Of a stretch of 27,118 bases of DNA, positions 2,803 to 24,717 are shown piece after piece. The stretch lies in the IMG/VR virus record IMGVR_UViG_3300025652_000431, positions 1 through 27,118 of that record; one strand, written 5' to 3'. The first letter of the stretch is position 1. Each line of letters opens with the position of its first letter. The notes under the pieces are model-generated. The model saw only the letters and a list, made by a program, of their open reading frames with translations, was not told the origin of the DNA and ran no database searches. The stretch comes from a virus. The translations under genes and the position numbers were made by a program.

Positions 2803-3200
2803 TAAAACACACTAAATATCGTGTGATCTTTGAAGACCCAGACGATCTGGACGCCCCAGTGAAGGTTTTGATACCGTCTCAAAGCTGGCTGGATGAAGCA
2901 ATGTCAGGAAAGCTGCCACCGATTTGGGTTTACTGGCAGTTACAAGATGACGAGCAACAGGCCATAGATGAGGGTCGGCATAAATCGTTTAAACATGACT
3001 CAGAAAAACATGCTTTACAATGGTCTGCTCCTCGCATTGACCCTTTGACGGAAGAAGAAGCAATGGAGTATTTGTGTATGAAAGACCTGCCACGCCGCGT
3101 TTGGTCTAAGGAACACAACCGCCCTATGTTTTGGATTGTTCGCACGGAGCAAGTACCATCTGACAGGAACTTTAGAAATGCTTGGAGAATGGCGGCATGA
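2799..3200 (+). CDS. Hypothetical phage protein ending in a DRNFRNAW motif (133 aa)
   Basis: The start overlaps the fibre gene's stop (ATGA at 2799-2802), a layout typical of a fibre gene followed by its small accessory gene. The N-terminal half is acidic (FEDPDDLDAPVKVL) and the middle is charged and helical. The last fifteen residues carry VPSDRNFRNAW, nearly identical to VPADRTFRNAW near the start of the next protein. A fibre-assembly or adaptor role is possible from position but not shown. No known catalytic motif is visible. Confidence 0.7.
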   Translation: MIKHTKYRVIFEDPDDLDAPVKVLIPSQSWLDEAMSGKLPPIWVYWQLQDDEQQAIDEGRHKSFKHDSEKHALQWSAPRIDPLTEEEAMEYLCMKDLPRRVWSKEHNRPMFWIVRTEQVPSDRNFRNAWRMAA

Positions 3201-3562
3201 CCACATTTGTAAAAATAGGTGCTACATCTTATAAAGCTGCAGATTATACGGTCCCAGCGGATCGCACGTTTCGTAACGCTTGGTCTGCTCCTGCGGCAGA
3301 CACCACCGTTATACAGATCGACATGGTAGCTGCCAGAAAGATTTGGCAAGATAAGATAAGAGCGGCTCGTAAAACAGAGTTTGAAAAACTTGATACTCTA
3401 TACATGAGGGCTTTAGAGGCTGGTAATACATCAGATCAAGCTACTATCGCCGCGCAAAAGCAAGCGTTAAGGGATGCTCCAACTAACTCTGGAATAGCAG
3501 CGGCAACAACACCAGATGAATTAAAAGCTGTTCAGCCTATTCCTAACGTAACGGTGGTTTGA
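3197..3562 (+). CDS. DRTFRNAW-motif phage protein (121 aa)
   Basis: The family pattern is VPADRTFRNAW followed by IDMxxARKIWxDKIRAARK and a FEKLDxxYMRALE helix. I have seen this architecture as a small protein in tail regions of alphaproteobacterial and marine phages, always without a proven function. I chose ATG 3197 because it forms an ATGA overlap with the previous stop and GGAG at 3184-3187 precedes it; an in-frame TTG at 3182 is less likely. After the motif the protein is mostly helical and ends in a Pro/Val-rich tail. It shares its motif with its upstream neighbour. Confidence 0.75.
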   Translation: MTTFVKIGATSYKAADYTVPADRTFRNAWSAPAADTTVIQIDMVAARKIWQDKIRAARKTEFEKLDTLYMRALEAGNTSDQATIAAQKQALRDAPTNSGIAAATTPDELKAVQPIPNVTVV

Positions 3563-3564
3563 TA

Positions 3565-10706: not shown

Positions 10707-13700
10707 TGCTCAGTTTCTCTGAATTAAAAGATGCTTCTATTGAGGCGTATGAAGCAGGAGACAAGGAACGTGCTTTTAAAATAAGAGATGACGCTCTTGA
10801 AGCTAAGAAGTTTGAGGAGTTAAAAGCTCAAGCTATTGCTGCATATGAAGCAGGGGACAAAGAGTTAGCTTTTGATTTAAGAGATCAGTCTTTAGCCATT
10901 GAAAAAGGCATGACCGAATCTGCCTTTACTGGAATAGGTCGGGGCATTAAGGCTGCGCCTGTCTTGATGGCTGAAGGTATTTCTGAAGATGCGGCTTTGG
11001 TTTTTGATTTTGCTTTTGATACAAACTCCGCGCCTGAAGTTACTAGATTTTTTAAAGAGTTTAGAGATGAAAATGATTTAAACCCTTATACCTCTTCGGG
11101 AAAAATAACTGAAGAATTAGTAGCGTTTGGGATAGGTGTATTGCCACCTTTGATAGTGTTAGGCCGGATCAATCAAGGTGTGAAACTATTAAAAGCAGGG
11201 AAAAAAATACCGGTTCCAAAAAGTGGTCTTTTTAAATCCGCTGATAAACTTGCTAATACTAAAACAGCGAAAGCTTTGCTTGGAAGTAAAAAGAAACTAG
11301 CTGCAGCTACCGCAGGAACCGTTTTAGCATATGAGACTTTAATCACACCATCTAACAGAGCAACATTATCGGACACCTATGATGTGTTGCCAGATTTCTT
11401 GCGAACAGAATCTGACGTTGGATTAGAAGGACGCGAAGAAGCCTCTCGTCGGTTACGCAACAAGTTACGTCGAGGCACAGAAAGCGGAATCTTGAGCCTA
11501 GCTTTTGATACTGCTCTTCCTGTGGTTGGCGCAACCGTTCGAGGAGTGGGTTCTCTTCCTGTGGTTGGTGATGCCGTGTCTGCAGTGGGTCGAGCTACAA
11601 CAAATGCTTTTACGATGGCTTCTAATTATCTAGGAAGCACCCGTATTGGTGAGGGAATTGGCAAAGGGTTTAACAAATATCTTAAGGCCAGCGGTGGTGC
11701 CGACAGCCAGATTTTTGAAAACCTGCAAGATGAAATATCTACTAGCGACGAAGCCCGTAGACAAGCGGTTCAATACTTTAACGCATTTGATAAAGAGACA
11801 TCAAGTTTCATCAACGCCTTGAAGCTTCCTAAGTTTAGAAAACAAAAGGCTCTGGAAGCAAGGTCCTCTTTGGAGAGTTTTTTAAACGGAAACTCAACCG
11901 CCTTAGATGGTTTTTCCAAACAAGCTCAACGGGCTGGTGAAAAACTATTAGACCTTAATCTTCGCATGCAAGATGATATGCTGTTTGATATAGAACGCAG
12001 TCTGCGATCCATTCCTATTAGGATGGGTGGACAACAATCCACGGCTGCAATGCAAGCTAAGAAAGAGTCTTTGGAAATAGCTCGTGACGAAATATTAAAA
12101 AATCAAAAAGCACAGAAGGTTTACTTGCGTAGACGATTTGATGTTCATGAGAACCCTGTTAGCTTTTATTCCAAGGGTATTGATCCTGACAGTGCCGTAT
12201 ACAAAGAAGCTTTAACCGAGATTAAAACAAATCTTCGAAACCAAAATTTGGGGTTGAGCGAACAAGGGTTGGAGCAAGAGGCGCGTAAAACCCTGTTTAG
12301 TTCCCTTGGTATGGAGTCCGTTTATCACGGGATGGACCCCAAGGCAGCGGCTAAAGTTATGGTTGAGTCCTTAAAGAAAGGCCGTGCAGACAACGTAAGG
12401 TTGGGCGGTCCTCTTCTTGATGTGGCTGATGATATGTTTATTAAACGTAAGCCTCTGATGGATGCGTCCCCTAACCTACAAAAGTTAATGGGTGTACGAG
12501 ACGATCTCAAAGAGAACTTTATTTTTACAATAGACAACCTTGCTCAAACAAGCGGGGGCCTACGGTTCTATCGTCAGATGGCACAAGACCCTGCTCTAAC
12601 AAAGTCTCAGGCAGTGGGACTTGATTTACTTCGCAGTGGAGGTAGGCCCTCAGTCATAAAGCTAGATGAACTCGGAGAGATGCAATCGACCACCGCACCT
12701 AGCAGCTTTGGAAGCATGGCAACCAAAGAAAGTATTGAGGGTGCCGAAACAGAACTGCAGACTTTGGGATATGTTAAACTAGGAGAGTTTGACAACGCTG
12801 CTACATTTAACGGGTCGTATGGCGATCTGTCAGGATCGTATGTTGCGCCTGAAATAGCAGATGCAATATCTGTTGGCGCTCGTATGGGTCAAAGCCCGAT
12901 GAATGAGGCGGCTGCTTTAGCCGTTCAAGCCAAGGGTCTCGTGCAGAAGTTGGCTATTATTCCCAACCCTCTCTCACAAGTAAGAAACATCTTGGGCAAC
13001 ATGCAGATGCTTGCTGCAAACGGTTTGTTTGGACGGGACATGGATTTTGTAGATGCGGCACGAATGCATTCTGGAAATCTAGCAACTTTGGACGAGGAGG
13101 GTGTTCAAAGTATGGCTCGTATGATGGGCGAGATGGGAGTTCGGGACTCTAGCCTCTTGGTTAAAGCTGTAAAAGAGTTGCAATCGGTTGGTAAAGACTT
13201 GAGTGTTGCTGGTAAGGTTGGAGAATTTTCAACCAAACTTTTTGACAGCATCCCTTTAATGAAGTTTTTTGAAAAGACTTATTCTGAATCTGATTCTTTC
13301 TTTAAAGTCATGAGTGTTTTGGGTGAGCGATCTCGCTATGCTACAGCTATTTCAAAGGCTGTGGATATTGAGGACGCAGCAATGATGTCTGCTGTTCAAC
13401 GGGAATTGATAGATCAAGGTATTGCTAAACGCACCACAAACTCTCGTGGCGACATGTTGTTTTTAGATGTTCTTGCGGCTGACGCTGTTAAGGACACGAT
13501 GCCAATATATTCTCGTGTTGGTTCAGCGGTGAAAGCTTTGGACAAAGTTCCCTTCTTGGGTAGCTTTACTTCGTTCGCGTCAGAAAACATTCGCAACTCT
13601 GTAAACACCATGACAAGGGGCTTAAAGGAACTAAGTTTTAAAGCGTCTGACCAGTTAAAACGAGAGATAGGTGAGCAGCAAGCCCGACAGCTTGAACGTT

Positions 13701-15022
13701 CTATGAGGGCTATTGGATCACAGAGATTGACCTCATACATCTCTGTTGCTGGTATTGCTCCGTATGCTGCAACCCAAGCATCCATGAAAGCAACAGGCAC
13801 AACTCAAGAGCAGATGGACGCGGCTCAAACTCAGATGGCTCCATACACTGCGGGTCATCAGTTCATTGTTTTGAACAACGACCAACGCGGCAAAATGCAG
13901 CTTGTAGATCAGAGTTACGTTGCTCCGTATTCGTTTGTTTACGATCCTGTTCGTGCGGCTCTTAGAGAATATTCTGAGAAGGGTGAGCTAGACAAGGGTG
14001 CAGCGGAGCGTATTGCATCGGGAGCATGGGCTGGTTTGACATCCTATGCAGAGCCGTTTGGAACTGAGTCTATGGCTTTCGAACGTCTGCGTGATTCCCT
14101 ACCCTCTGATAACCCAATCGGTCGTGGTGGTAAAACTTCATTGGGAACTCCAATATGGAGAGACAGTGATCCCTTGGGGGATAAGGTAGCTAAGGGCGTA
14201 GCTCATGTTCTTGGAGGATTTATACCTGCATATGTTAAGATGTTTGGCGAAGAGCGTAAGGGTGAGTTAGAAGAAGGGCGTTTAGTTCGTTCTATTACTG
14301 GCACCCCCACTTCGCAGGGACTTCAATACACATCTGAAGAGGAGTTGGCCCGTATAATATCAGGGTTTACGCCCATCACTCTTGATCTCCGAAAGGATTT
14401 TAATTTCAAGGGCAAAGAGTATTTGAGCCTGCGTTCTAGCGCCAAGACTGCAGCTTCTCGCGCCATCAGGGACAACGATACAACGTCCCAAGAGATGATA
14501 AGTTCGTGGAACTCTTACTTAAATAATTTGTATCGGGATCAAAGCAAGCTTTATGCCGACATAAAAGCGGCTAAAAAGATTGGTCTGTCTGATTATGAAA
14601 TACGAAAGAACTTAGTGCGGGTAGCGGGGCTTGGCAGCAAAGAAGCCGCTATAATCATGCGAGGAGAGTTTGCTCCGGGTCTTGCAAGCAAAGAATTAAT
14701 AAGAGACATTAATCTTGAGGTTCAAGAAGGACAAGCAAGGGTGACTGATGATCCTCCATATGCAGAGTTTAACGCGCTGTCGAATGAAAGAAGATTTATG
14801 CCTTTGGCTGAACGCACAGAGGAGCCTGTAGAAGTGCCTGTAGAAGCCGCTCCTGTAGAATTGCAGGTTACCCCTCCTGTTGCAGCTAACCCCGCTCCTA
14901 CGGCCCCTGCAGCGGCTCCAGTGCAGCAAACGGATACAGGCTTGCGTCAGTTCATTCCATCCACACTACTCGGGGACTTCCGCAATATCGACATCGCTCG
15001 AAGACTTGGGATGGGACAGTAG
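10706..15022 (+). CDS. Giant internal virion / ejection protein candidate (1438 aa)
   Basis: At 1438 residues this is the largest protein here, the size class of T7 gp16-like ejection proteins. Residues 4-63 hold two 32-residue helical-hairpin repeats with AYEAGDKExAFxxRDxxL, resembling TPR-like units. A hydrophobic stretch near 140-160 (AFGIGVLPPLIVLG) could cross or touch a membrane. The body is long and helical with no lysozyme or transglycosylase motif that I can identify. The C-terminus is a Pro/Val/Ala-rich linker (about 1370-1410) followed by a short tail (FIPSTLLGDFRNIDIARRLG). ATG 10706 forms a TGATG overlap with the previous stop; GAGG at 10692-10695 precedes it. Role inferred from size, order and composition. 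Confidence 0.6.
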   Translation: MLSFSELKDASIEAYEAGDKERAFKIRDDALEAKKFEELKAQAIAAYEAGDKELAFDLRDQSLAIEKGMTESAFTGIGRGIKAAPVLMAEGISEDAALVFDFAFDTNSAPEVTRFFKEFRDENDLNPYTSSGKITEELVAFGIGVLPPLIVLGRINQGVKLLKAGKKIPVPKSGLFKSADKLANTKTAKALLGSKKKLAAATAGTVLAYETLITPSNRATLSDTYDVLPDFLRTESDVGLEGREEASRRLRNKLRRGTESGILSLAFDTALPVVGATVRGVGSLPVVGDAVSAVGRATTNAFTMASNYLGSTRIGEGIGKGFNKYLKASGGADSQIFENLQDEISTSDEARRQAVQYFNAFDKETSSFINALKLPKFRKQKALEARSSLESFLNGNSTALDGFSKQAQRAGEKLLDLNLRMQDDMLFDIERSLRSIPIRMGGQQSTAAMQAKKESLEIARDEILKNQKAQKVYLRRRFDVHENPVSFYSKGIDPDSAVYKEALTEIKTNLRNQNLGLSEQGLEQEARKTLFSSLGMESVYHGMDPKAAAKVMVESLKKGRADNVRLGGPLLDVADDMFIKRKPLMDASPNLQKLMGVRDDLKENFIFTIDNLAQTSGGLRFYRQMAQDPALTKSQAVGLDLLRSGGRPSVIKLDELGEMQSTTAPSSFGSMATKESIEGAETELQTLGYVKLGEFDNAATFNGSYGDLSGSYVAPEIADAISVGARMGQSPMNEAAALAVQAKGLVQKLAIIPNPLSQVRNILGNMQMLAANGLFGRDMDFVDAARMHSGNLATLDEEGVQSMARMMGEMGVRDSSLLVKAVKELQSVGKDLSVAGKVGEFSTKLFDSIPLMKFFEKTYSESDSFFKVMSVLGERSRYATAISKAVDIEDAAMMSAVQRELIDQGIAKRTTNSRGDMLFLDVLAADAVKDTMPIYSRVGSAVKALDKVPFLGSFTSFASENIRNSVNTMTRGLKELSFKASDQLKREIGEQQARQLERSMRAIGSQRLTSYISVAGIAPYAATQASMKATGTTQEQMDAAQTQMAPYTAGHQFIVLNNDQRGKMQLVDQSYVAPYSFVYDPVRAALREYSEKGELDKGAAERIASGAWAGLTSYAEPFGTESMAFERLRDSLPSDNPIGRGGKTSLGTPIWRDSDPLGDKVAKGVAHVLGGFIPAYVKMFGEERKGELEEGRLVRSITGTPTSQGLQYTSEEELARIISGFTPITLDLRKDFNFKGKEYLSLRSSAKTAASRAIRDNDTTSQEMISSWNSYLNNLYRDQSKLYADIKAAKKIGLSDYEIRKNLVRVAGLGSKEAAIIMRGEFAPGLASKELIRDINLEVQEGQARVTDDPPYAEFNALSNERRFMPLAERTEEPVEVPVEAAPVELQVTPPVAANPAPTAPAAAPVQQTDTGLRQFIPSTLLGDFRNIDIARRLGMGQ

Positions 15023-15024
15023 GT

Positions 15025-16926
15025 TTACCCTACCTCGCCCCAGTTACTACCCAACTCCTCATCCACCTTGGATGGTACTTTCAGAACGTCATCAAGACCA
15101 TGCTCCATGATCTCGGTAATGCGTGACGCCTGCTTCTGATCCTGTACCGAAAAGCACAGTTCGTCATGCACCGTGAGCGATGGAACCAGACCCTCGTTAT
15201 AGCAATCCAACATCGCCCGTTTGGTTTGGTCGGCGGCTGATCCTTGGATCAACTTGTTGAGTGCCTTGTATGTAAACGCCCTGCGTAAATTCATGCCGTG
15301 CTTTTTCTGTGCATCCTCCAACGGGAGCGGCTGCTCATACCCGTAGGTGCGCGGCTCCCATAGATGGAAGCGGCACCGCCTACCAAGCAACGTGCGTATC
15401 GAACCATGCTTGGATGCCTGTACACTTGCCAGTTCCGCAAGCCCCTTAACAAACGGCACCTTCGAATGGTGCGTAGCCAGCAATGCCTTGGCCTCGTCCG
15501 GCGTGATCGATAACTGAGCAGCCAGCTTTGCAACTCCCATGCCATACATGATCCCAAGGTTCACAGTCTTAGCTTGCTTGCGTGTAATCCCTGCGAAGTC
15601 TGCCACCATCTGGTGCAGATCGACATCGCCCGAATGGTACTCTTTGACAATCTGATCCACCATGTCATGCCTATGCACACCGGACACGCTTGCAGCAAAG
15701 TGAACCAAGAGCCTTGGCTCCTGACTAGCATAGTCAAACGAACCCCACTGGCACCCGTCCTCCGGAATGAACAAGCCTCGTATCAGCTTCTTGATGTCTG
15801 GATCACGCGCAGGGATTTGCTGCAGGTTTGGGTTTGAGGACGAGAACCGTCCAGTTACCGTGCCTCCGTCATCGCTCCGTAGCTGGTGGAACTCGCAGTG
15901 TATGCGTCCGTTATGACTGTGCCGCTGTATGGTTTCAATAAACGTACCGTCTGCCTTGTCAAACTCGCGTAGCTTTACGATAGCCTGAGCCACTTCGTTC
16001 GGGTGAGAGGACAGGTACTGTTTGGTAAAGGACGGTGCGCCAGTTTCCGTGCTTGGATAAGATAGGTCCAAAGCCTCAAAGACTTTCTTCACTGACTCTG
16101 CAGCCCACGGTTCTATCTTCACCCCGCTCTTGTGTTTGATAAACTCCTTGAGCGTCTTGACTTGCTTGCGTAACCCGTCCCTAGCTTGATCCGCCTTGTC
16201 CAGATCAACACGCACCCCTTTCTTACGCATCTCCAACATCAAAGGTATGAGGCCCGTTTCGAGATCAAAGATTGCACCCAAGTCTTGTTCGCTGATCTCT
16301 ATCTTGAGCCGATGCCAAAGCTTCAATGTCATGATTGCGTCCTGCTCTGCATACGCACCAACGTACATCGGAGGCAGACGCCACATCTCTGACTTAGGAT
16401 CAAGGCCAAAGTCCTTTGCCGCAGCGCGTAACATCTTCTCGTTCTTACGCATGTCAATCCAATCGCGGCCTAGATTGTTGAGGCTGTAAGAAAACCTGTT
16501 CTCGTCTATCAAAGGAGCGGCAACCATCGTGTCGATGATCCGGCCCTGTACCTCTATGCCCTCCGCGTATAGCCAACCTGCGTCATAGGTTGCATTGTGC
16601 ATGATCTTATCAATCCGAGGTGTAGCCATCTGCTTTTTAAACCAACGCAGCGTCATCTTAGGATCAAGATTGTGTCCGTTCTGGTGACGAATAGGAAAGT
16701 AGCCAGCGTAATCCCCCGCTGCTACCGCAATGCCCACGATATTCCCGTCACCCCTAGCCCATCCGGGGCCAAGGGTGGTAAGGTTTGGGTCTCTTGTCTC
16801 AAGGTCCACGGCTATTTCTTTGTAGCCTGTCAGATCAGGGAACTCGAACGGGATGTTCCAATCGGGGTCCAAGTTATCCATTTCCATTCGCTCAAGAAAG
16901 CTTATGGTCTTATCTTTTTTCGCCAT
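15025..16926 (-). CDS. polA: Family A DNA polymerase with 3'-5' exonuclease
   Basis: This is a complete 633-aa replicative polymerase. The proofreading exonuclease is intact: D41/E43 (VDLETRD), N111/D115 (HNATYDAGW) and Y192/D196 (YAEQDA). Polymerase motif A is FDYASQEPR (D398, steric-gate E403), motif B RKQAKTVNLGIMYG (R449, K453, Y461) and motif C LTVHDEL (H587-E589). There is no 5' nuclease domain. Position 457 of motif B is leucine, equivalent to Phe762 of E. coli Pol I, a substitution known from marine phages. The gene's start lies 17 bases inside the end of the DUF6378-like gene, in an operon with helicase and primase. Its 3' end faces the giant structural gene with a two-base gap. Confidence 0.97.
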   Translation of the reverse strand: MAKKDKTISFLERMEMDNLDPDWNIPFEFPDLTGYKEIAVDLETRDPNLTTLGPGWARGDGNIVGIAVAAGDYAGYFPIRHQNGHNLDPKMTLRWFKKQMATPRIDKIMHNATYDAGWLYAEGIEVQGRIIDTMVAAPLIDENRFSYSLNNLGRDWIDMRKNEKMLRAAAKDFGLDPKSEMWRLPPMYVGAYAEQDAIMTLKLWHRLKIEISEQDLGAIFDLETGLIPLMLEMRKKGVRVDLDKADQARDGLRKQVKTLKEFIKHKSGVKIEPWAAESVKKVFEALDLSYPSTETGAPSFTKQYLSSHPNEVAQAIVKLREFDKADGTFIETIQRHSHNGRIHCEFHQLRSDDGGTVTGRFSSSNPNLQQIPARDPDIKKLIRGLFIPEDGCQWGSFDYASQEPRLLVHFAASVSGVHRHDMVDQIVKEYHSGDVDLHQMVADFAGITRKQAKTVNLGIMYGMGVAKLAAQLSITPDEAKALLATHHSKVPFVKGLAELASVQASKHGSIRTLLGRRCRFHLWEPRTYGYEQPLPLEDAQKKHGMNLRRAFTYKALNKLIQGSAADQTKRAMLDCYNEGLVPSLTVHDELCFSVQDQKQASRITEIMEHGLDDVLKVPSKVDEELGSNWGEVG

Positions 16927-17215
16927 TTGATAAACCTATTTCTGCGCCCAGTGCGCTGTAACCTGCCTTGTCCACCCACGAGTCTTGATGCGATGTATCG
17001 TTGAGCAGCCGTGTTGTCTTTAACCAATCCATCATCAACGCTACATGCGTGGGAGTAATAGGGGAAAATGTCCCGTTCTGTTTAATGGCCCTAGAAACAA
17101 TGACGTTCCACCCATCTGCAATGTCCCTGAACGATTGTGTTGCATCCCCGTAGTCCTCCTGCCTGTCACCAGATATCAGAGACTTGGCTTTGTCTAGCAC
17201 CTCATCTCTTTTCAC
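16910..17215 (-). CDS. DUF6378-like phage protein (101 aa)
   Basis: The protein matches my memory of the phage DUF6378 family: an N-terminal LDKAKSLISGDRQEDYGDATQSF helix region, IADGWNVIV, then VALMMDWLKTTRLL and DSWVDKAGYSALGAEI. The conserved Asp/Gly/Tyr pattern (GDRxxDYGD, DSWVDxAGY) and its size agree with that family. The function is unproven; because it sits with replication genes, a role in nucleotide or DNA metabolism is possible. It overlaps the helicase stop by four bases and the polymerase start by 17 bases, so the three are probably translated together. Confidence 0.75.
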   Translation of the reverse strand: MKRDEVLDKAKSLISGDRQEDYGDATQSFRDIADGWNVIVSRAIKQNGTFSPITPTHVALMMDWLKTTRLLNDTSHQDSWVDKAGYSALGAEIGLSNGEKR

Positions 17216-18741
17216 AACATATACCTGTATCGCTTATCGGATTCCAGAATGTGCAGGTTCTCTTTGGTCCTAGTCACGGCAACATAAAACACCCTATGCT
17301 CCGCGTCTGGGTTCTTCCCTTCCAGACAAGCCTTCGTGGACCCTAGATACACCAAGCAATTCTCGTCCTCCCCACCCTTCATAGCATGGATGGTTGAGAT
17401 TTTAATGCGAGGCGTGTCAGTAATTCTTTCGCCTCGTGCCTCAATCGACTGTATGTATAACCTGTCCTCCGTCCCGAGGTTCATTACGTCCGTGGCAGGG
17501 CGATCTATCGGAGCAACCAAGCCAAACTCAGAAACAAGTTCGTCGTATGAAAGCATAGCGTCATCCGCTGCAGCATCCAACAACCCAGTAGCACCCCGCT
17601 TAACAACCCGATAGTCCCCCATCTTCGGAACGTTCTTATACAACTCCTTAACCCGCATGCGACTGACACGCTCTCCAGCTTGCAGCTTCCGCCATACGTC
17701 AATGCCATCGGCTACCGCTTCGCTCACACTTGACCGACCGCGAAAGCTATACAGGTATCCATACGCCCTGACCTGCTTTGCCATTTCCCAAGCATAGGAG
17801 TTGGTACGTGCCATCAAGGTCCACGACCCCTCATACATAGGAACCGTCTCAAAGTTCATGTGGTACGTGACCTTGCCCTCTCGCTCCGTTGGCTCGAACT
17901 CCTTGGAGATGCGATTGTCTATGCGCTTTACAATACGTTGGGACAAATCATGCACTACCCGTGGCATACGGTGCGACTGACTCAACACAGTCTGCTTCTT
18001 AGATGCTGACAAAAACTTGTTTACATCAACGCCTGTCCATTCGTGGATAGCCTGATCGTCATCCCCTGCAATGATGATTCGCTTGGCATGCTCCGACATC
18101 TTTGAAACCATCTGCCATTGTGACGGCGTTAAGTCTTGGGCCTCGTCAACAATCAATACGTCTAGCTCCGGAGGAATAACAAGCTCTACATACCGAGAAA
18201 TAAAATCCCCAAAGTCTAGCTTGGCTTCCTGCGTCTTGTACTTGGTTAGTGTGGCCTCGACATTCTCCAGCTTGGAGAAGGCAAGACTATGGTTGCCCGA
18301 GTCATTGAACTCCTGCTCAAGAGAAACCAAACGCGACCGCGCCCTGTCGATTATGTTTAAGTACTGAGCGCCGGACCCCGAGAGTGTTGTCTTAGGCAGA
18401 CCGTCTGCCACATCAATCCCGTCCTTCGCCAAGAGATCAAGACGCAAGATACCTGATAGCTTCCTGTAGTCATCAGCCCCCATAACATCAGCAGTCTGCA
18501 GACCAAGCCCGTGAAACGCCGTGGCATGCAACGTCCTGCAATGCGGCAACTCCTTTGGCTTGAGGTTAAACTTCAGGCAAGCCCGTTCCATCGCTTCCTG
18601 AATTGACTTGCGAGTGAAAGAAACAAACGCAAATCTATGGGGCGCACCGCCCTCCTCAAAGTAATCGTTCACCCGCTCCATCAACGTGTATGTCTTCCCA
18701 GTTCCGGGCGGTCCCAGTATCAGTTCACTATTCGTAATCAT
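17212..18741 (-). CDS. UvrD/PcrA-like superfamily 1 DNA helicase
   Basis: This 509-aa ATPase shows SF1A helicase motifs in order: Walker A GPPGTGKT (10-17), motif Ia region FVSFTRKS (39-46), Walker B DEAQD (199-203), motif III GDDDQAIHEWTG (226-237), motif IV LSQSHRMP (253-260), motif V STIHAMKGGE and motif VI YVAVTRTKENLHIL (486-499). It is clearly shorter than UvrD or PcrA (about 720 aa), so the accessory subdomains must be reduced. It would translocate 3'-5' on single-stranded DNA, in replication or recombination. It starts inside the end of the AlpA-like gene (14-bp overlap) and ends four bases into the DUF6378-like gene. It may act as the fork helicase, since no hexameric helicase is visible. 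Confidence 0.92.
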   Translation of the reverse strand: MITNSELILGPPGTGKTYTLMERVNDYFEEGGAPHRFAFVSFTRKSIQEAMERACLKFNLKPKELPHCRTLHATAFHGLGLQTADVMGADDYRKLSGILRLDLLAKDGIDVADGLPKTTLSGSGAQYLNIIDRARSRLVSLEQEFNDSGNHSLAFSKLENVEATLTKYKTQEAKLDFGDFISRYVELVIPPELDVLIVDEAQDLTPSQWQMVSKMSEHAKRIIIAGDDDQAIHEWTGVDVNKFLSASKKQTVLSQSHRMPRVVHDLSQRIVKRIDNRISKEFEPTEREGKVTYHMNFETVPMYEGSWTLMARTNSYAWEMAKQVRAYGYLYSFRGRSSVSEAVADGIDVWRKLQAGERVSRMRVKELYKNVPKMGDYRVVKRGATGLLDAAADDAMLSYDELVSEFGLVAPIDRPATDVMNLGTEDRLYIQSIEARGERITDTPRIKISTIHAMKGGEDENCLVYLGSTKACLEGKNPDAEHRVFYVAVTRTKENLHILESDKRYRYML

Positions 18742-18946
18742 CTTCCCTAGCCCTTTCGTTTACCCATTCTTCCACTTCGCTCAGAACCCAACGCTTGGTC
18801 TGTCGCTGCTTGGGGTTCATAGGCCCAAGCATTATGGGCCGTGGAAACTGGCCCATTTTTACCCACTTGTAGAGAGTTGAGGTCGATACTCCCAAAAGCT
18901 TTGCAACCTCAGACACCCTTAACAAACGGTTAGAAGGGGATGTCAT
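18728..18946 (-). CDS. AlpA / excisionase-like helix-turn-helix protein (72 aa)
   Basis: The sequence LLRVSEVAKLLGVSTSTLYKWVKMGQFPRPIML (residues 8-40; written here as one known pattern: SEVAKLLGVS...LYKWVKMGQFP) is the classic MerR-like winged helix of AlpA and excisionase proteins. It ends in WVLSEVEEWVNERA. Such proteins bind DNA as transcription regulators or bend it as recombination directionality factors. No integrase lies in the window, so a regulator is more likely than an excisionase. The start codon lies inside the last codons of the primase gene (17-bp overlap), and its end overlaps the helicase start, so it is made with the replication proteins. Confidence 0.88.
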   Translation of the reverse strand: MTSPSNRLLRVSEVAKLLGVSTSTLYKWVKMGQFPRPIMLGPMNPKQRQTKRWVLSEVEEWVNERAREDDYE

Positions 18947-20459
18947 TTGGAATCTCCTTTACATCTAATTCTACATCCGTTTCCTCGAACGCAGGCACAC
19001 GCCAAACACGCGCCGTTGTTCTCTTTCCATCAGCCTTGCGATAGTTCAGCTTGTACTCTGCATCCTTGCCACCGTTCAGCTTCTTTAACGCTTCCGTAAC
19101 CTCGGCCCTTGTGTAGTGAGTGAAGTTTCGATTGCGCAAATACTCCATGAGACCCGCGATCATGAACGAGGTAAACCCGTCCTCGGTCCACGGCTTCCCA
19201 TGCGTAACCTCTTCTGCCTGTACCGCCCGTATCCTACTGGTGCAGTACATGCGTAGATGATCTTTAAACTGTCCCGAGTAAGTTAGCTCCTCCGGAACCT
19301 CTATGCGTGTGGAGTTCACCATCAACGCAGAGATCAACATCTGCCACTTGGCAGGCCGCATAGTGGGCGGCATAATACTAAGCTGATCCATGCATGCCCG
19401 TTGGAATAGCGTCTGGTTCTGTAGCTGCTCTGTTGATAGCTGCACCCTACGCCCTGTCACATCCAAGAAATGCAGGCGAGGCTCCGACAACATGGTTACA
19501 AGACCGCCCAACTTGGGCGCGTCCGGCATGTCGTCCCCCACACCATACTTTCTGGTACGGCATACGTCCGGATCACAATAGCTTTTGATTGGCTCTTGCT
19601 TGCAAGTGTAGAAATAATCTTTCTTGCCTACCGATTTCTGCAGCGCAGACATCTCAGAAGCAGGAAGAGGTTGGTCTGTTAGCTCCCTGTTCATCTGTTC
19701 TAGCTTCTGAGGCCAATCATCAGCCCATTTCTTACGGCAGTACACCCCACAGTTGAAGAGGGTTGTGTTCCTATCACTTGAGATTGCACCCTGAGAACAC
19801 ATGTGCTGCAAGCATGGTGGCCCGTCAAAGAAATCTTCCTTGCCCCCAAGTCTCAAGGCTTCCAGAGTATCTATCGTGGTGACAGACTTCTCTGCGTGAT
19901 CCAAGAAATCGTCTAACTCCAACGCCTCGACCTTGCTATCGAAGCAGTATCGAACCGTCTCCTCTGCCTTGAAGTACGGCAGGTTAATAAAGTTACCAAC
20001 ATCCCCTTGCTCAGATAATATCGTGTCTTGTTTGGGAAAAATCTCTGACCCAGAGAAGCCCAACGCAATAGACATCTCGGTCAGGAACTCTCGCACCACT
20101 GCCGCTGGCTCCCGCTGCTCAAGAAACAAATACAAATGCGCCCCGCCCGACTTCGAACGGCAGTGAGACAATGGGAACTTTAACTTAGTAATCTTTTGCT
20201 GAAGCTGCTTGTGATCCAGATCGTAGACGTCAACATCAATGCAACCAAAGCGGCATGCGTTGTCCTCGTCTATCGGTATGGACCCAACACCTAATGAGCC
20301 ATCTAAATGCTCCTGCATAGCCTCCTCGGTAATCGGATCACGCACAATCCAACTATCGGCTTCGGTCTTACCGTTCCGTCCCACACGTTTTATTTTTGTA
20401 GAGCCATACGCCACCCGCGAACCCGCGAAGATAGCCAGCATCCTACTAGCTTGTGTCAT
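18930..20459 (-). CDS. Archaeo-eukaryotic primase (AEP, TOTE-type) with cysteine-rich domain and DIPF tip
   Basis: This 509-aa protein has an AEP primase core: D75/D77 in CIDVDVYD (metal binding), SKSGGAHLYLFL (S104, H108) and FPKQD...GNFINLPYF, as in TOTE-type primases. A metal-binding region follows: C216, C221, C237, C241, then C286, C295, C300 in YTCKQEP...YCDPDVCRTRKYG, probably Zn or Fe-S. The C-terminal third is helical. The last residues (DVELDVKEIPNDIPF) are acidic and end like bacterial SSB tails. It would make primers for the phage polymerase. Start ATG 20457-20459 follows AAGGA on the minus strand. A strong hairpin lies just upstream of the start. Confidence 0.85.
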   Translation of the reverse strand: MTQASRMLAIFAGSRVAYGSTKIKRVGRNGKTEADSWIVRDPITEEAMQEHLDGSLGVGSIPIDEDNACRFGCIDVDVYDLDHKQLQQKITKLKFPLSHCRSKSGGAHLYLFLEQREPAAVVREFLTEMSIALGFSGSEIFPKQDTILSEQGDVGNFINLPYFKAEETVRYCFDSKVEALELDDFLDHAEKSVTTIDTLEALRLGGKEDFFDGPPCLQHMCSQGAISSDRNTTLFNCGVYCRKKWADDWPQKLEQMNRELTDQPLPASEMSALQKSVGKKDYFYTCKQEPIKSYCDPDVCRTRKYGVGDDMPDAPKLGGLVTMLSEPRLHFLDVTGRRVQLSTEQLQNQTLFQRACMDQLSIMPPTMRPAKWQMLISALMVNSTRIEVPEELTYSGQFKDHLRMYCTSRIRAVQAEEVTHGKPWTEDGFTSFMIAGLMEYLRNRNFTHYTRAEVTEALKKLNGGKDAEYKLNYRKADGKRTTARVWRVPAFEETDVELDVKEIPNDIPF

Positions 20460-20529: not shown

Positions 20530-21327
20530 CTAAAACGGGATGTCTTTGTCCCGTTTATCGGAAGGCGGAGTTGCGGAGGTTTCACCCTCCGGTGCTGCTT
20601 TAACTTCACCCGCTGCAACGGACTGTCTAAACAGCCTTGCCTCCTGCAACAGATCACGCTCTTTAACCAAGCCTTCTTTCTCAACGGCCCAGTTATTCCA
20701 AGTCCCTTGGTCATTGCTCTCCTCGACAGAGCGTAGACGCCAAACCGTGGCAAAGACCGCCGGAGTAACCATCGCACCCGACTTGGGATGCTTGACTTTC
20801 TGCATGGCGATCTGCGTTTTCCAACGACGGCTTACCTTGAGTTGAGTAGACTTCATGTCTACCACCGCAGGTTGGTAAGAGCCGTCATCATCTACAATCA
20901 ACACGAAATGCTGGTCAGACTTCACCAGTTCATTGCCGCTTGGCAACATCTCCTTGGACCCCGACCGTGTTGTTTGCGTCAGGACAGGATCATTCGCGGC
21001 AATCTCACCTTGAAAACCACCGCCCAACTCTCGCGGCACAAACTCAAGGTACTTGGTGCATTGGTAACAAGGGATCACACGTATCCCCTCCTCCCCGTTC
21101 CACACCTGAGATGTGACATTGTTAAACGCATCACCTTGCTGCGCACCCTCAATGTGTTCAGCATTGCGCTTGTTTAACTGTGGAGACATAGCCTGAAGCA
21201 ACCGGACAAACGGTATCTGCATCTCGCTACTGTCAAATGAAGCACCTTCACCCGCAGTGTCAAAGATATCGTCCATTACATCTGTGCTTAACTCTGCACT
21301 TTTTTTATTTGCTACCGCGTTACCCAT
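20530..21327 (-). CDS. SSB-like single-stranded-DNA-binding protein candidate (265 aa)
   Basis: The C-terminus is an extended Glu/Pro/Ser-rich tail ending in SDKRDKDIPF, the hallmark tip of bacterial SSB proteins. The middle is beta-rich with aromatic residues (IRVIPCYQCTKYLEFVPREL, then QHFVLIVDDDGSYQPAVVDM and TVWRLRSVEE), suggesting an OB-fold-like core. The N-terminus (MQIPFVRLLQAMSPQLNKRN...IEGAQQGDAFN) matches a phage family I recall without a firm name. It stands immediately upstream of the primase gene, as expected for a fork component. ATG 21327 is preceded by a G-run (GGGGGG) seven bases away. The ssDNA-binding role is inference from tail, composition and context. Confidence 0.6.
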   Translation of the reverse strand: MGNAVANKKSAELSTDVMDDIFDTAGEGASFDSSEMQIPFVRLLQAMSPQLNKRNAEHIEGAQQGDAFNNVTSQVWNGEEGIRVIPCYQCTKYLEFVPRELGGGFQGEIAANDPVLTQTTRSGSKEMLPSGNELVKSDQHFVLIVDDDGSYQPAVVDMKSTQLKVSRRWKTQIAMQKVKHPKSGAMVTPAVFATVWRLRSVEESNDQGTWNNWAVEKEGLVKERDLLQEARLFRQSVAAGEVKAAPEGETSATPPSDKRDKDIPF

Positions 21328-21329
21328 AT

Positions 21330-21605
21330 TTATGCCCCCCCAAGAATAGATTTAATCAAAGAGATGCGTTCCTTCGCCATCTTCTTCTCAACCTTCATAC
21401 TATTGTATAAAGCTTTTTGCTGCCCGTTAAGATCAGCCTCAAGTTCCAAGAGAGTTTGAAGCTCTTCGTCAATCTGTCTCTCAATCAACTGATCTTCCAT
21501 GCGCTCTTCGAAATCTGTTTCGTCGTTGTCCATGAAGCCACCATACTCATCAGTGTGGTCTTCATCATCCATTTCTTCCAGCATTTTATTCTTATACGCA
21601 CCCAT
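21330..21605 (-). CDS. Acidic coiled-coil protein (91 aa), unknown function
   Basis: The first half is very acidic (EEMDDEDHTDEYGG...NDETDFEERMED) and the second half is a heptad-like helix (QTLLELEADLNGQQKALYNSMKVEKKMAKERI). The start overlaps the stop of the upstream gene by one base (TAATG), and the stop lies two bases from the SSB-like start, so these three are one unit. Acidic small proteins in phage early regions can mimic DNA or act as adaptors; nothing specific is shown here. I recognise no family. Confidence 0.7.
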   Translation of the reverse strand: MGAYKNKMLEEMDDEDHTDEYGGFMDNDETDFEERMEDQLIERQIDEELQTLLELEADLNGQQKALYNSMKVEKKMAKERISLIKSILGGA

Positions 21606-22165
21606 TATGCTTTCCTCCGGATTTCTGCTGCGTTTGCGATGAATGCCCCAAACATGTCGAGGTCAATAGGCTTCCCGTCCGTCACGCGCTCTTTAATAAA
21701 CGCCTTCAATGTAGAGGGATGAACGTGGGTCTTGGTGTTCGGTTCGAAACCACGATCATTTAAGATGCCAACAACATCCTTTGCCATGTTGTCTTGGCCC
21801 TTGCCAAACGAGCATATGACATCGTTCTTTATAATGTCATCAAGCCCCTGCTCCCGAAGCCACGTATAGGCTTCCTCTCTTCGCGCAACTGGGATGCTGG
21901 CGTGAACCATCATCTTACGCTGCACAGTCAAGCCGTCTACATCAAGACGCTCAACGCCCATCTCATCCATGAGTGATGGTATTTGTTCGACCGATAGCTT
22001 GTGCTTCTCAGCCTTCAATGCTTTCAAGTGCGCCTCGGCATCGACCATCTGGTCTTCGATCCCGCGCATTGTACGCACTAGATCACTGAGGTTTTTCCCA
22101 GTGTTCGTGTCAACTCCAGCCAACGCTTGGCCTTCGTCAAACATGTCATCAAAAATATCGTTCAT
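21605..22165 (-). CDS. Phage early protein with N-terminal coiled coil (186 aa), unknown
   Basis: This is the first gene of the - strand replication operon, starting from the divergent region at 22166-22258. Residues about 25-60 form a coiled coil (LSDLVRTMRGIEDQMVDAEAHLKALKAEKHKL), followed by a small alpha/beta domain (DVDGLTVQRKMMVHASIP) and a C-terminal helical region (HPSTLKAFIKERVTDGKPIDLDMFGAF). The layout resembles other phage early proteins I have seen next to SSB- or recombination-type genes, some compared to Gam, but I cannot confirm that. AGAGGA precedes ATG 22165 on the minus strand. Its end overlaps the next gene by one base. Confidence 0.7.
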   Translation of the reverse strand: MNDIFDDMFDEGQALAGVDTNTGKNLSDLVRTMRGIEDQMVDAEAHLKALKAEKHKLSVEQIPSLMDEMGVERLDVDGLTVQRKMMVHASIPVARREEAYTWLREQGLDDIIKNDVICSFGKGQDNMAKDVVGILNDRGFEPNTKTHVHPSTLKAFIKERVTDGKPIDLDMFGAFIANAAEIRRKA

Positions 22166-22190
22166 AAGTTCATCCTCTTCAGGGTTGTGG

Positions 22191-22219
22191 TTGACGGGTC
22201 AGACTATTATCTGTAAAAC
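22191..22219 (+). promoter_or_regulatory. Sigma70-like promoter for the SNF2 helicase island
   Basis: TTGACG at 22191-22196 (five of six matches) is followed after exactly 17 bases by TAAAAC at 22214-22219 (four of six). It lies in the only divergent gap of the window and points toward the SNF2-type helicase gene, giving a short leader of roughly 30 bases. I could not find an equally good box pair for the opposite strand. Confidence 0.5.
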
Positions 22220-22247
22220 AATAACCAATCCGTAAAATAGACAATAA
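22213..22247. repeat. Imperfect direct repeat in the divergent promoter region
   Basis: GTAAAACAATAA at 22213-22224 and GTAAAATAGACAATAA at 22232-22247 share GTAAAA and ACAATAA, the second with a four-base spacer. They start 19 bases apart, overlap the predicted -10 box and reach the gene start. Such spacing suits binding of a small phage repressor, but no binding protein is known. Confidence 0.4.
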
Positions 22248-22258
22248 TGGAGGACGTC

Positions 22259-23710
22259 ATGGATTTCAAGTACAATTTTAAAAAAAATCCGTTCGACCAT
22301 CAAAGGGATGCGTTGACGGTTGGGCTTACCCGCCCAGAGTTCGGGTACTTTATGGAGATGGGAACCGGAAAGTCTAAGGTTCTCATAGATAATATGGGCA
22401 TGCTGTTTCTAAGGCAGGACATAGACTTCGCCTTGGTCATCGCACCAAAGGGCGTATATCGAAACTGGGTAGAGAAAGAAATACCTGAGCACATGTCCGA
22501 TAGCGTGGACTATCGCATAATACGCTGGGTTACAGGCGGCAACAAAAAGCAACAGGAAGAAATGAGATCGGTCCAAGAACCGTTCGAGGGCCTGACGATC
22601 TTCGTTATGAACGTCGAGGCTTTCAGTTCCGTCAAAGGCAGAACCGCAGGGGAATGGTTTGCTAAACGCTTCGGGTCCCGTGGTCTCATAGCCGTGGATG
22701 AAAGCACCACCATCAAAAACCCCAAGGCCAAACGAACCAAGGCCCTGCTCAAGATAGCGCAGGAGTTTAGATTCAGGCGTCTGCTCACCGGATCACCCGT
22801 TACCAAAAGCCCGATGGATATCTGGTCACAAGCGGAGTTCCTACGGTCGGGACTCATGGGCTTCGAATCATACTGGGGTTTCCAAAGCCGATATGCCGTC
22901 ATGCAAAAGGTTAAGATGGGTGCCGCTGCTTTCACGCAGATACTAGGCTATAAAAACTTAGATGAACTAACCGACCGGATTGATTCGTTCTCCTTTCGGG
23001 TACTCAAGAAAGACTGCCTCGACTTGCCCGAGAAAATATACACGGTGCGTAACGTAAGCATGACCCCTGAGCAACGCCGCATGTATGAAGAGATACGAGC
23101 AAACGCTATGGTCCTATTTGAAAACGGCGATATGACCACGGCCCCCGCCGTAATCACCCAACTCCTGCGCATGCAGCAAGTTATGTCAGGGCATCTCAAA
23201 ACAGATGATGGTGACATGATAACCTTTCCCTCAACCAGACTAGATGCGCTGCTTGAAATAGTAGAAGAGCACCAAGGCAAAGCCATAATCTGGTCACGGT
23301 TTCGACACGATATCAAAGCTATCACCGAGGCCCTCAACAAAAGATTCGGGGATGGTTGTGCCGCTGCATACTTCGGTGACACGTCCGACGATAAGCGAAG
23401 TCAAATCGTCAGGGACTTTCAACACGGTGACACGATTAGGTTCTTCGTAGGCAATCCCGCAACCGCAGGGTACGGTCTGACATTGACCGAAGCTAACCTC
23501 GTGGTCTACTATGCTAACGACTTCAACCTCGAAACTCGGATACAATCAGAAGACCGCGCTCACCGTATCGGGCAACATAACCCAGTAACATACGTCGATC
23601 TAATCACAGAGAAAACGATTGATGAAAAGATCGTTAAATCCTTGAGAAGCAAGATCGATATCGGTGCCGTGGTCCTTGGAGAAAAAGCAAGAGAATGGCT
23701 GACCGTATAA
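22259..23710 (+). CDS. SNF2-type superfamily 2 DNA helicase/translocase
   Basis: The 483-aa protein has FDHQRDAL near the N-terminus, Walker A MEMGTGKSK (32-40), Walker B variant DEST (147-150, instead of DEAH/DEAD), TGSP motif III (177-180) and motif VI QSEDRAHRIGQ (429-439), the SNF2 signature. Such proteins translocate on double-stranded DNA and can remodel forks or nucleoprotein. The length equals the bare two-lobe engine, with no nuclease, HIRAN or zinc domain attached. I chose ATG 22259 because GGAGG at 22249-22253 lies five bases before it; ATG 22247 would itself overlap that site. It is on the opposite strand to the other replication genes, with its own promoter. Confidence 0.9.
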   Translation: MDFKYNFKKNPFDHQRDALTVGLTRPEFGYFMEMGTGKSKVLIDNMGMLFLRQDIDFALVIAPKGVYRNWVEKEIPEHMSDSVDYRIIRWVTGGNKKQQEEMRSVQEPFEGLTIFVMNVEAFSSVKGRTAGEWFAKRFGSRGLIAVDESTTIKNPKAKRTKALLKIAQEFRFRRLLTGSPVTKSPMDIWSQAEFLRSGLMGFESYWGFQSRYAVMQKVKMGAAAFTQILGYKNLDELTDRIDSFSFRVLKKDCLDLPEKIYTVRNVSMTPEQRRMYEEIRANAMVLFENGDMTTAPAVITQLLRMQQVMSGHLKTDDGDMITFPSTRLDALLEIVEEHQGKAIIWSRFRHDIKAITEALNKRFGDGCAAAYFGDTSDDKRSQIVRDFQHGDTIRFFVGNPATAGYGLTLTEANLVVYYANDFNLETRIQSEDRAHRIGQHNPVTYVDLITEKTIDEKIVKSLRSKIDIGAVVLGEKAREWLTV

Positions 23711-23955
23711 AAAAACCCGCAACCCATGAAGACGTCATCGAAACAATGGTGGACTTTAAAAAAGGATTGCGGACCCTCGACACTGGAGCCACGGTCCTGT
23801 CGGAACAAACAGGCTTGACCGAAGATATCGCAAGGGCTTATCTAAAAGGGTTAAAGAAATCTAGCCTCAACGTCACACAGATACGAGGTTACAGTAAAGA
23901 AAAACCAGAAGCCCTTGCTGGTAAGAAGGGCAAATGGAACGAGGCCCGACGATAA
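23695..23955 (+). CDS. Small partner of the SNF2-type helicase (86 aa), unknown
   Basis: The gene overlaps the helicase end by 16 bases, so the two are almost surely co-expressed. The protein is basic and helical, with THEDVIETMVDFKKGLRTLD, then a segment that could be an HTH (ATVLSEQTGLTEDIARAYLKGLKK), then a lysine-rich tail (KEKPEALAGKKGKWNEARR). A DNA-binding adaptor for the helicase is plausible but unproven. The coding end forms the left arm of the terminator-like hairpin, and the TAA lies in its loop. Confidence 0.7.
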   Translation: MADRIKKPATHEDVIETMVDFKKGLRTLDTGATVLSEQTGLTEDIARAYLKGLKKSSLNVTQIRGYSKEKPEALAGKKGKWNEARR

Positions 23956-23967
23956 AATCGGGCCTCG
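23940..23967. terminator. Bidirectional terminator-like hairpin between convergent units
   Basis: CGAGGCCCGA at 23940-23949 pairs perfectly with TCGGGCCTCG at 23958-23967, a 10-bp GC-rich stem with an eight-base loop. It lies exactly where the + strand SNF2 unit meets the end of the - strand operon. Neither side has a strong T-run (CTCTGTCGTTTAT on +, TTCCATTTG on -), so termination may be partial or the hairpin may protect both mRNA ends. Confidence 0.55.
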
Positions 23968-23993: not shown

Positions 23994-24143
23994 TTACGCA
24001 GCTTCTTCCTTAAACTTATTTATAATCAACGATAACTGCTGAAGCATGGACCGCCGCTCTTGTGCAGCAATCCGCCTGAGAATCTCCAAGTCTTTCGCCA
24101 TGATCGTCACCGTTGCGTATTTTTTATCTTCAGCCTTCTTCAA
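23994..24143 (-). CDS. Small ribbon-helix-helix DNA-binding protein with TTG start (49 aa)
   Basis: This gene is short and easily missed. Reading from TTG 24143, it gives a lysine-rich start, a beta strand (KKYATVTIMAKD) and two helices (LEILRRIAAQERRSML and LQQLSLIINKFKEEA), the pattern of CopG/Arc-type ribbon-helix-helix repressors (strand, helix, turn with a small residue, helix). GGAG lies seven bases before the TTG, and the start overlaps the previous gene's end by 14 bases, as other genes here do. From the inner ATG 24101 only 35 residues and no beta strand would remain, so the TTG is preferred. It probably acts as a dimeric repressor, perhaps of a nearby promoter. Confidence 0.6.
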   Translation of the reverse strand: MKKAEDKKYATVTIMAKDLEILRRIAAQERRSMLQQLSLIINKFKEEAA

Positions 24144-24717
24144 TCGACTTCTCCATGTCTATTACTTCCTTTGATGTCGGAGGAAAGAACGGCGCAGAGG
24201 TCAAGGCCCATCGAACAAACGACCCCCTAGCAGAAAGCCCCGGACGTTGGTGCGTAATGCTCTTCACAACCCTGCCTTGGTTAAACAAACGGTGTAAAGA
24301 ATTGCTCACCATCTGACCATCTATTTCATGGTCCTCCTGCAGTTCATACGCTACCTCCCCACACAACCAAGCGTCCTCGTTCACATCGTCGTGCGTCTCA
24401 CTTAGTATATCTAGCACCAAGCGATCAACCTCGTCTGAGTCCATAACACGCCTTGCGGGTTCCTGTACTGGGGCAGGAGCCGTGCCGTTTGCTCCTGATC
24501 CAACTGCCCTCCAAGGAGTTCGGTCCCTCTGCTCATGGGCGTTTGGTACAACCACAAACGTTTGAAACGAACCCTCCTCTAAGCTATGCTTCTTGGCAAA
24601 TATAGGATCAAAGAAAACGCTTTCGCCCTCTGTATTAACCCCAAAGCCATGCCCCTGCGGAAACATCTTCTCCACATAAACGTCCTGATATTCTATTAAG
24701 CCTTTTAATTGTTGCAT
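24130..24717 (-). CDS. Possible OB-like plus winged-helix protein (195 aa)
   Basis: Residues about 10-60 (VYVEKMFPQGHGFGV...ESVFFDPIFAKKHSL...FQTFVVVPN) resemble a cold-shock/OB-type barrel with a GFG element. Residues about 70-95 are a Pro/Ala-rich linker. Residues about 95-170 form helices and a wing-like hairpin (VDRLVLDILSE, LCGEVAYELQEDHEIDGQMVSNSLHRLFNQGRVVKSI), suggesting a winged-helix domain. Together this would be a nucleic-acid-binding protein. A strong AGGAGG (24727-24722 on the minus strand) overlaps the preceding stop and lies five bases before ATG 24717. Domain assignment is by pattern only. Confidence 0.55.
   Translation of the reverse strand: MQQLKGLIEYQDVYVEKMFPQGHGFGVNTEGESVFFDPIFAKKHSLEEGSFQTFVVVPNAHEQRDRTPWRAVGSGANGTAPAPVQEPARRVMDSDEVDRLVLDILSETHDDVNEDAWLCGEVAYELQEDHEIDGQMVSNSLHRLFNQGRVVKSITHQRPGLSARGSFVRWALTSAPFFPPTSKEVIDMEKSIEEG

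Follow-up and report, generated by a model that had tools for sequence, protein, structure and literature searches.

The two rightward genes at 22259-23955 of the window (the complete 27,118-base record of a marine bacteriophage that we analysed, a fragment judging by gene content) are a conserved and ordinary replication helicase unit, combined with a partner family that is absent from the libraries searched and with a predicted promoter embedded in the helicase gene. To judge from the comparison of related loci, they are resident in the replication module, where they are transcribed divergently, and not a recent acquisition.

The + strand genes up to 15022 are structural, judging by position and size. 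They are followed by a - strand block that runs leftward from 22165 to 15025. This block begins with a gp33-like gene (21605-22165; DUF7307, Pam3 gp33-like, from a Pfam-type domain match), the first of the leftward replication operon, and continues with a gp34-like gene (20530-21327; domain match to Pam3_Gp34), an AEP-type primase (18930-20459; domain and PHROG matches), an AlpA-type HTH gene, a UvrD-like helicase (17212-18741; domain and PHROG matches), a DUF6378 gene and, as the operon's last gene, a Family A DNA polymerase (15025-16926; match to phage polymerases). The nearest polymerase match is 52.6% identical, and the polymerase comparison found no close named member of this phage group. 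A second leftward group, of small genes, extends from 23994 to the right end of the window, and the two-gene unit lies between the two leftward blocks. An earlier note on this DNA had described the unit as an independently controlled cassette; our analysis supports a transcription unit of its own, opposed to its neighbours and flanked by a structured region on either side. GC skew followed gene direction and located no replication origin in the window, where no Rfam match was found either. At the left end of the window, a 2OG-Fe(II) oxygenase gene (87-731, + strand; PF13759, E 5.7e-11) lies beside structural-type genes, and the + strand gene at 10703-15022 encodes a 1439-aa protein with matches in 3 of 50,697 phage records, one of which carries an ADP-ribosyltransferase annotation.

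The SNF2-type helicase and its place among relatives

The first gene of the unit (22259-23710, + strand) encodes a SNF2-type (SF2) DNA helicase/translocase of 483 aa. Its Pfam matches are above the curated cut-offs (SNF2-rel_dom, E 4.8e-19; Helicase_C, E 5.8e-14), and it falls into PHROG 62, DNA helicase (E 2.7e-124). The reading frame is open from 22247, a position that is without a start codon in most relatives, and comparison makes the ATG at 22259 the most likely and conserved start, with a Shine-Dalgarno sequence GGAGG at 22249-22253 (+ strand) assigned from comparison and sequence. The earlier description of two overlapping + strand genes between - strand blocks holds (the overlap is 16 nt, and the neighbouring genes are bounded at 22165 and 24130), with the helicase start corrected from 22247 to 22259.

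The model of the helicase (pLDDT 82.7) has two lobes that explain the whole protein, since structural matches cover residues 1-477 of 483; the absence of an extra domain, remarked on earlier, is thereby borne out. The Walker A residues G35-T36-G37-K38 (GTGK) and residues D147-E148 of motif II are invariant in the alignment. The DEST variant of the Walker B motif that had been singled out is present, but it is a family rule and no peculiarity of the window's helicase: motif II reads DEST in 53 of the 56 nonredundant relatives, and likewise in Pbunavirus SL1, Xanthomonas phage FoX7, DSL-LC04 and HTVC027P. The nearest solved sequence is the SNF2/Rad54-family ATPase of Sulfolobus solfataricus, 1z63 (E 5.1e-32), which we take to be the product of locus SSO1653; it is also the top Foldseek match of the model (E 6.8e-23) and differs in being a cellular enzyme. 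SNF2-type helicase matches occurred in 3204 of 50,697 phage records, with at least 80% of the query covered in 1974 of them.

The earlier note had taken the unit for an island, perhaps acquired, and had proposed comparing related phages for its presence or absence. We asked this question with the neighbouring genes, gp33 and primase, as IMG/VR queries rather than with the helicase itself. Eighty loci were fetched with gp33, and after removal of 20 duplicates and seven that were too short, the helicase was divergent and in the same place, at most 700 bases away, in all 53 usable loci. With primase, 79 loci were taken (the eightieth was already in the gp33 set); 18 without gp33, 18 that were too short and 12 duplicates were dropped, and the helicase had the same place and orientation in 31 of 31 usable loci. 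The two sets share contigs, and their counts are not additive. Gene order was uniform among the relatives listed. In a comparison of 56 nonredundant loci out of 163, helicase distances correlated with those of UvrD (rho 0.70) and of primase (rho 0.66); for comparison, rho was 0.78 between UvrD and primase and lower, 0.26, between gp33 and primase. Fixed place and congruent distances give no sign of separate acquisition and indicate that the unit resides in the replication module. Related phages thus keep the unit, its place and its gene order, which is the outcome that the note itself had named as speaking against an island, and its proposal of acquisition is not supported.

A cassette acquired for anti-restriction, counter-defence or superinfection exclusion is accordingly extremely improbable. 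The opposite strand, the unit's own boundaries and the occurrence of SNF2 motors in defence proteins would suit such a cassette, but no usable locus lacks the helicase, and its distances are congruent with those of the neighbours; on these two results an acquired island was rejected. In PADLOC, the much longer profiles of ZorD, DpdE and DrmD matched the helicase over the motor part only, their defence-specific domains remaining unmatched; the NCBIfam ZorD model scored 79.6 bits, against a cut-off of 1500. The partner gave no PADLOC match. We therefore found nothing for the anti-restriction or exclusion functions that had been offered, the PADLOC and NCBIfam matches covering the shared SNF2 motor only.

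Among named phages, the PHROG 62 helicases of Yuavirus, Pbunavirus and Carpasinavirus are of the same kind as that of the window, and a gp34-like gene lies near the helicase in Ab18 and SL1, as it does here. In these three genera, unlike in the window, the helicase shares its strand with the replication genes beside it; in Pseudomonas phage Ab18 it (514-2073, + strand) is upstream of the gp34-like gene (3200-3955, + strand). DSL-LC04 (OR003939) and the HTVC023P-type pelagiphages resemble the window in having a divergent helicase, 45-50% identical to ours, beside gp33, gp34, primase, UvrD and polymerase. Among 80 HTVC023P-type loci, gp33 was divergent in 71 and missing in nine. A published study of these phages includes the HTVC027P helicase (QGZ17868.1) among the five conserved proteins of the HTVC023P-type multigene tree (PMC9599517).

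The term "inverted", applied earlier to the unit, is thus apt only relative to Ab18; the arrangement is divergent in this clade, DSL-LC04, 023Pt_psg01 and HTVC027P. The orientation could be the by-product of an old inversion, without regulatory meaning, as the contrast with Ab18 and the otherwise retained neighbours might suggest. We regard this as quite unlikely, given that DNA-level constraint on the codons bearing the -35 box and the kept hairpin (both described below) point to junctions that are in use.

The partner protein p86 and the right boundary

The second gene (23695-23955, + strand) encodes p86, a protein of 86 aa that is recognized from its family in relatives, their alignment and a three-helix model. 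It is basic, as previously noted, with a pI of 9.74, and the family alignment has Gly40, Arg64-Gly65-Tyr66 and Lys68 conserved. Every one of the 96 distinct helicase loci whose stop is readable has a + strand reading frame of 60-130 aa that overlaps the end of the helicase gene. Some of these loci were fetched via p86 itself; those fetched via the helicase give the same result. The 65 distinct partner sequences from these loci make up one family.

The p86 family is missing from the libraries searched. No relatives were found in Pfam, PHROGs, NCBIfam or PADLOC at the limits used, in the 50,697 annotated phage records (two members as queries), which include the PHROG 62 phages, or in bacterial and archaeal genomes (one member, L034, as query; 68 pattern matches). 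The best Pfam value of the family (Sp-DndD, E 0.0054, in one of 41 members) was taken as chance, as were the three PDB sequences matched by the p86 profile (best E 0.037). In the AlphaFold model of p86 (pLDDT 84.7), three helices form a bundle and two further short ones are present. The earlier description of the protein as HTH-like agrees with this model to the extent of its three helices, but fold matches were weak (Z at most 4.5, and about 3.6 for homeodomains; Foldseek, best E 1.8; viral models, best E 0.4), and in the 41 members searched no domain family came up with a convincing E-value.

In the DSL-LC04-like loci, the place of p86 is held by a nuclease in 10 of 10 cases (PD-(D/E)XK by the depositors' label, without a Pfam match), and in the HTVC023P-type loci by small or unrelated reading frames or by none. 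A relationship of p86 to the nuclease or to the other proteins in this place was considered and rejected, the p86 profile having given no significant match. Since p86 is absent from its place in both of these groups, it would not be essential to every such helicase.

The perfect 10-bp hairpin reported earlier on this side of the unit was confirmed. It is GC-rich, with an 8-nt loop, and lies across the p86 stop between the converging genes (23940-23967; folding, -24.2 kcal/mol, z -3.85). No intrinsic-terminator T-run follows it on either strand of the window. In relatives, we looked for stems of at least six pairs, with at least five G-C, near the p86 stop. Of 59 nonredundant loci, 32 had such a hairpin, where shuffled sequences would give 0.77, and none was found in the other 27; a control at uvrD stops gave 0 of 36. 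A T-run followed the hairpin on the - strand in 23 loci and on the + strand in eight, and on either strand in 27 of the 59. In several lineages the - strand T-run lies, by eye, opposite the lysine codons with which p86 ends. Judged by its sequence, the hairpin of the relatives is often a terminator.

Between the hairpin and the gene boundary at 24130 there is an additional small - strand reading frame (23994-24146, about 50 aa), which is ribbon-helix-helix-like by eye and has no Pfam match. Related reading frames hold the same position in many of the relatives listed.

A predicted leftward promoter reaching into the helicase gene, and its leader

The consensus hexamers of sigma-70-type promoters are TTGACA and TATAAT. 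We scanned 31 nonredundant regions, out of 59 distinct regions between gp33 and the helicase, for box pairs of this type, scored out of 12. A leftward pair scoring at least 9 was present in 29 of the 31 regions (4.2 expected), and one scoring at least 10 in 20 (0.47 expected). The pair was at the same place in 28 of 31, its -35 box covering positions +10 to +5 relative to the start of the helicase. In the window, the -35 box TTGAAA (TTGACA in most relatives) occupies helicase codons 2-4 (22264-22269, - strand), and the -10 box TATTGT is at 22241-22246 (- strand), where it would serve the operon that runs from gp33 to polymerase. By this measure the best-conserved predicted promoter of the region is not the helicase's own; it points left, toward gp33, primase, UvrD and polymerase.

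The codons under the -35 box are constrained beyond the needs of the protein. We compared 71 nonredundant helicase genes out of 236; these loci are related by descent, so that the codon counts below are not independent events. TGTCAA stands at the -35 place in 53 of the 71 genes. In all 53, the valine of codon 3 is encoded by GTC (28.9% of valine codons, 0.289, elsewhere in the genes), and codon 2 ends in T (background 0.202) whether its residue is T, D, V, S, N or G. In the other 18 genes, codon 3 encodes Cys, Tyr, Phe or Asp; the window is among the genes with TTC there, and its box reads TTGAAA. This bias among synonymous codons at codons 2 and 3 means that protein constraint does not explain the conserved -35 box. 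The first codons of the helicase thus appear, from their sequence, to double as an on-switch of the adjoining replication genes. Sigma-70-like boxes would be expected if the phages use host RNA polymerase, and HTVC027P has no RNA polymerase of its own (PMC12753301).

The promoter-like box pair that the earlier note had assigned to the helicase, TTGACG (22191-22196)-N17-TAAAAC (22214-22219), is present in the window on the + strand (22191-22219) as a possible helicase promoter, its spacing judged by eye. It fails the box scan, TAAAAC being without the final T, and over the family the rightward pairs scoring at least 9 of 12 were not above chance (6 of 31 regions, 4.2 expected). A rightward pair is recognizable in the window and in some lineages, where it points against the leftward promoter. 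The imperfect repeats mentioned alongside it correspond to a single 10-nt direct repeat, ATCTGTAAAA/ATCCGTAAAA, spaced 19 nt. Upstream of the 023Pt_psg01 helicase (L155, 1-70), facing TTGACA and TGTCAA hexamers around TATAAT were seen by eye. From these hexamers, the arrangement of opposed promoters may predate this clade.

The leftward transcript would begin with a leader (22166-22234, - strand; from folding and covariation) in which a stem-loop is followed by a ribosome-binding motif, CAACCCTGAAGAGGA (22173-22187, - strand; from comparison), containing the gp33 ribosome-binding site. The start was assumed to be 7 nt past the -10 box. Twenty-three nonredundant leaders out of 64 folded better than shuffled sequences (mean z -2.68; p<0.05 in 19 of 23), and 20 of 23 were more stable on the leader strand than on the complementary one (Wilcoxon p 0.0035). 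Covariation was measured without gaps on 21 leaders, all 42 nt long; of the 26 with this length, five that belong to other sequence types were omitted. The score was 0.131, versus 0.094 when shuffled; it was reached by none of 500 shuffles and exceeded all slid versions. Pair types were no higher than in shuffles (6 vs 6.6), and double changes occurred at two pairs, as many as in 155 of 500 shuffles. As the sequences are related, the covariation is support and not proof. A dyad is present at the promoter in every lineage, its sequence varying while dyad and place are kept. On this comparative evidence, the stem-loop of the leader has been retained while its sequence diverged.

The core motif CTGAAGAG, adjoining the gp33 start, was absent from no region in the first set examined; a second set was built on regions holding CTGAAGAG, and invariance there is partly by construction. 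Exact CAACCCTGAAGAGGA occurs once in the window, with two sites at three mismatches (0.82 matches expected in all), and no window-wide regulon through this motif was seen. In two loci (L018 and L110), about 620 bp are inserted between leader and gp33, with a reading frame of 183-201 aa that is 2OG-Fe(II)-oxygenase-like by eye, and in a third (L042) the insertion is 276 bp, with a 70-aa reading frame that is AlpA-like by eye. The leader stays put in all three despite the insertions just downstream.

The dyad could instead act at the DNA level, as an operator or as part of an origin. Its position immediately past the -10 box is common for operators, and its sequence differs among lineages while dyad and place are constant. 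The asymmetry between strands (lower free energy on the leader strand in 20 of 23) and the tolerance of bulges and G-U pairs in the stem make us doubt this interpretation and prefer an RNA stem-loop. Somewhat less probable still is that p86 is a DNA-binding regulator that acts at the dyad of the shared promoter and switches between transcription of the replication operon and of the helicase, the unit being regulatory first. Its basic character, its three-helix model with weak homeodomain-like matches, the dyads at the promoter in every lineage and the opposed boxes of the window and some lineages are compatible with such a protein. An accessory, however, would account at least equally well for the fixed overlap with the helicase gene in 96 of 96 loci, the helix that would have to recognize DNA begins with acidic residues in many members (by eye), and the greater stability of the dyad on the leader strand points to RNA.

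Proposed role of the unit

Of the functions offered earlier, replication, or recombination with it, fits the neighbouring genes and the phage family. We consider it probable that the unit is a resident replication unit of this uncultured phage group, with a fork-remodelling helicase, an accessory p86 and overlapping opposed promoters. The comparison shows the helicase and its overlapping partner gene in a constant position, divergent from the gp33-gp34-primase-UvrD-polymerase operon and convergent with the second leftward early unit; the GC hairpin would end that second unit, the helicase unit or both. The promoter-like boxes of the leftward operon are spread over the intergenic stretch and the beginning of the helicase reading frame, and the operon's transcript would start with the stem-loop leader. 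With promoters that would overlap and point at each other, the helicase and the replication operon may be transcribed at mutually exclusive times.

Judging from its sequence and by analogy, the helicase would translocate on dsDNA and remodel replication intermediates that are branched or stalled. Its tasks may include fork regression, branch migration and R-loop removal, as for T4 UvsW. The p86 protein, its translation coupled to that of the helicase on a shared transcript, would be its accessory and may supply what a motor of two lobes alone is missing, a surface for contacts with DNA or protein.

In T4, UvsW.1 reportedly resembles, by NMR, a nucleic-acid-binding module of RecQ. A RecQ-type helical domain was absent among the viral-model matches listed for p86, which excludes nothing. 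Homology of p86 to UvsW.1 was considered, but hhalign detected no profile similarity (probability 0.1, one column). The likeness to T4 is one of arrangement. The gene of UvsW, an SF2 helicase, is followed by a small separate reading frame of 76 aa and unassigned function, UvsW.1, and then by a conserved terminator that works in both directions and precedes an oppositely oriented gene (PMC1524935); UvsW is made late and acts on branched DNA, forks and R-loops (PMC3016281). Helicase, small reading frame and terminator-like boundary recur in the window, where, unlike in T4, the helicase is matched by SNF2 models and the neighbouring genes differ. This layout, together with the fork, branch and R-loop work of UvsW as presented there, makes a fork and R-loop remodeller our best guess for the window's helicase; the analogy is of function and layout and not of family membership.

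A more specific scheme, which we hold to be a long shot, is a switch of replication mode: the leftward leader transcript would also prime early replication at an R-loop origin, the helicase, read against it from an overlapping promoter, would later unwind the R-loop and stop origin firing, and p86 would be a loader or a repressor. If this were true, the first helicase codons would be bound both by the needs of the protein and by those of the promoter, and p86 would be a new small-protein family.

For the mapping of transcripts this region supplies primary targets, and the promoter embedded in the coding sequence would be a clear example, across many phage lineages, of DNA-level constraint on synonymous codons. 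As a compact and conserved two-protein version of the SNF2 enzyme, the unit would offer a testable accessory factor for a very common type of phage helicase.
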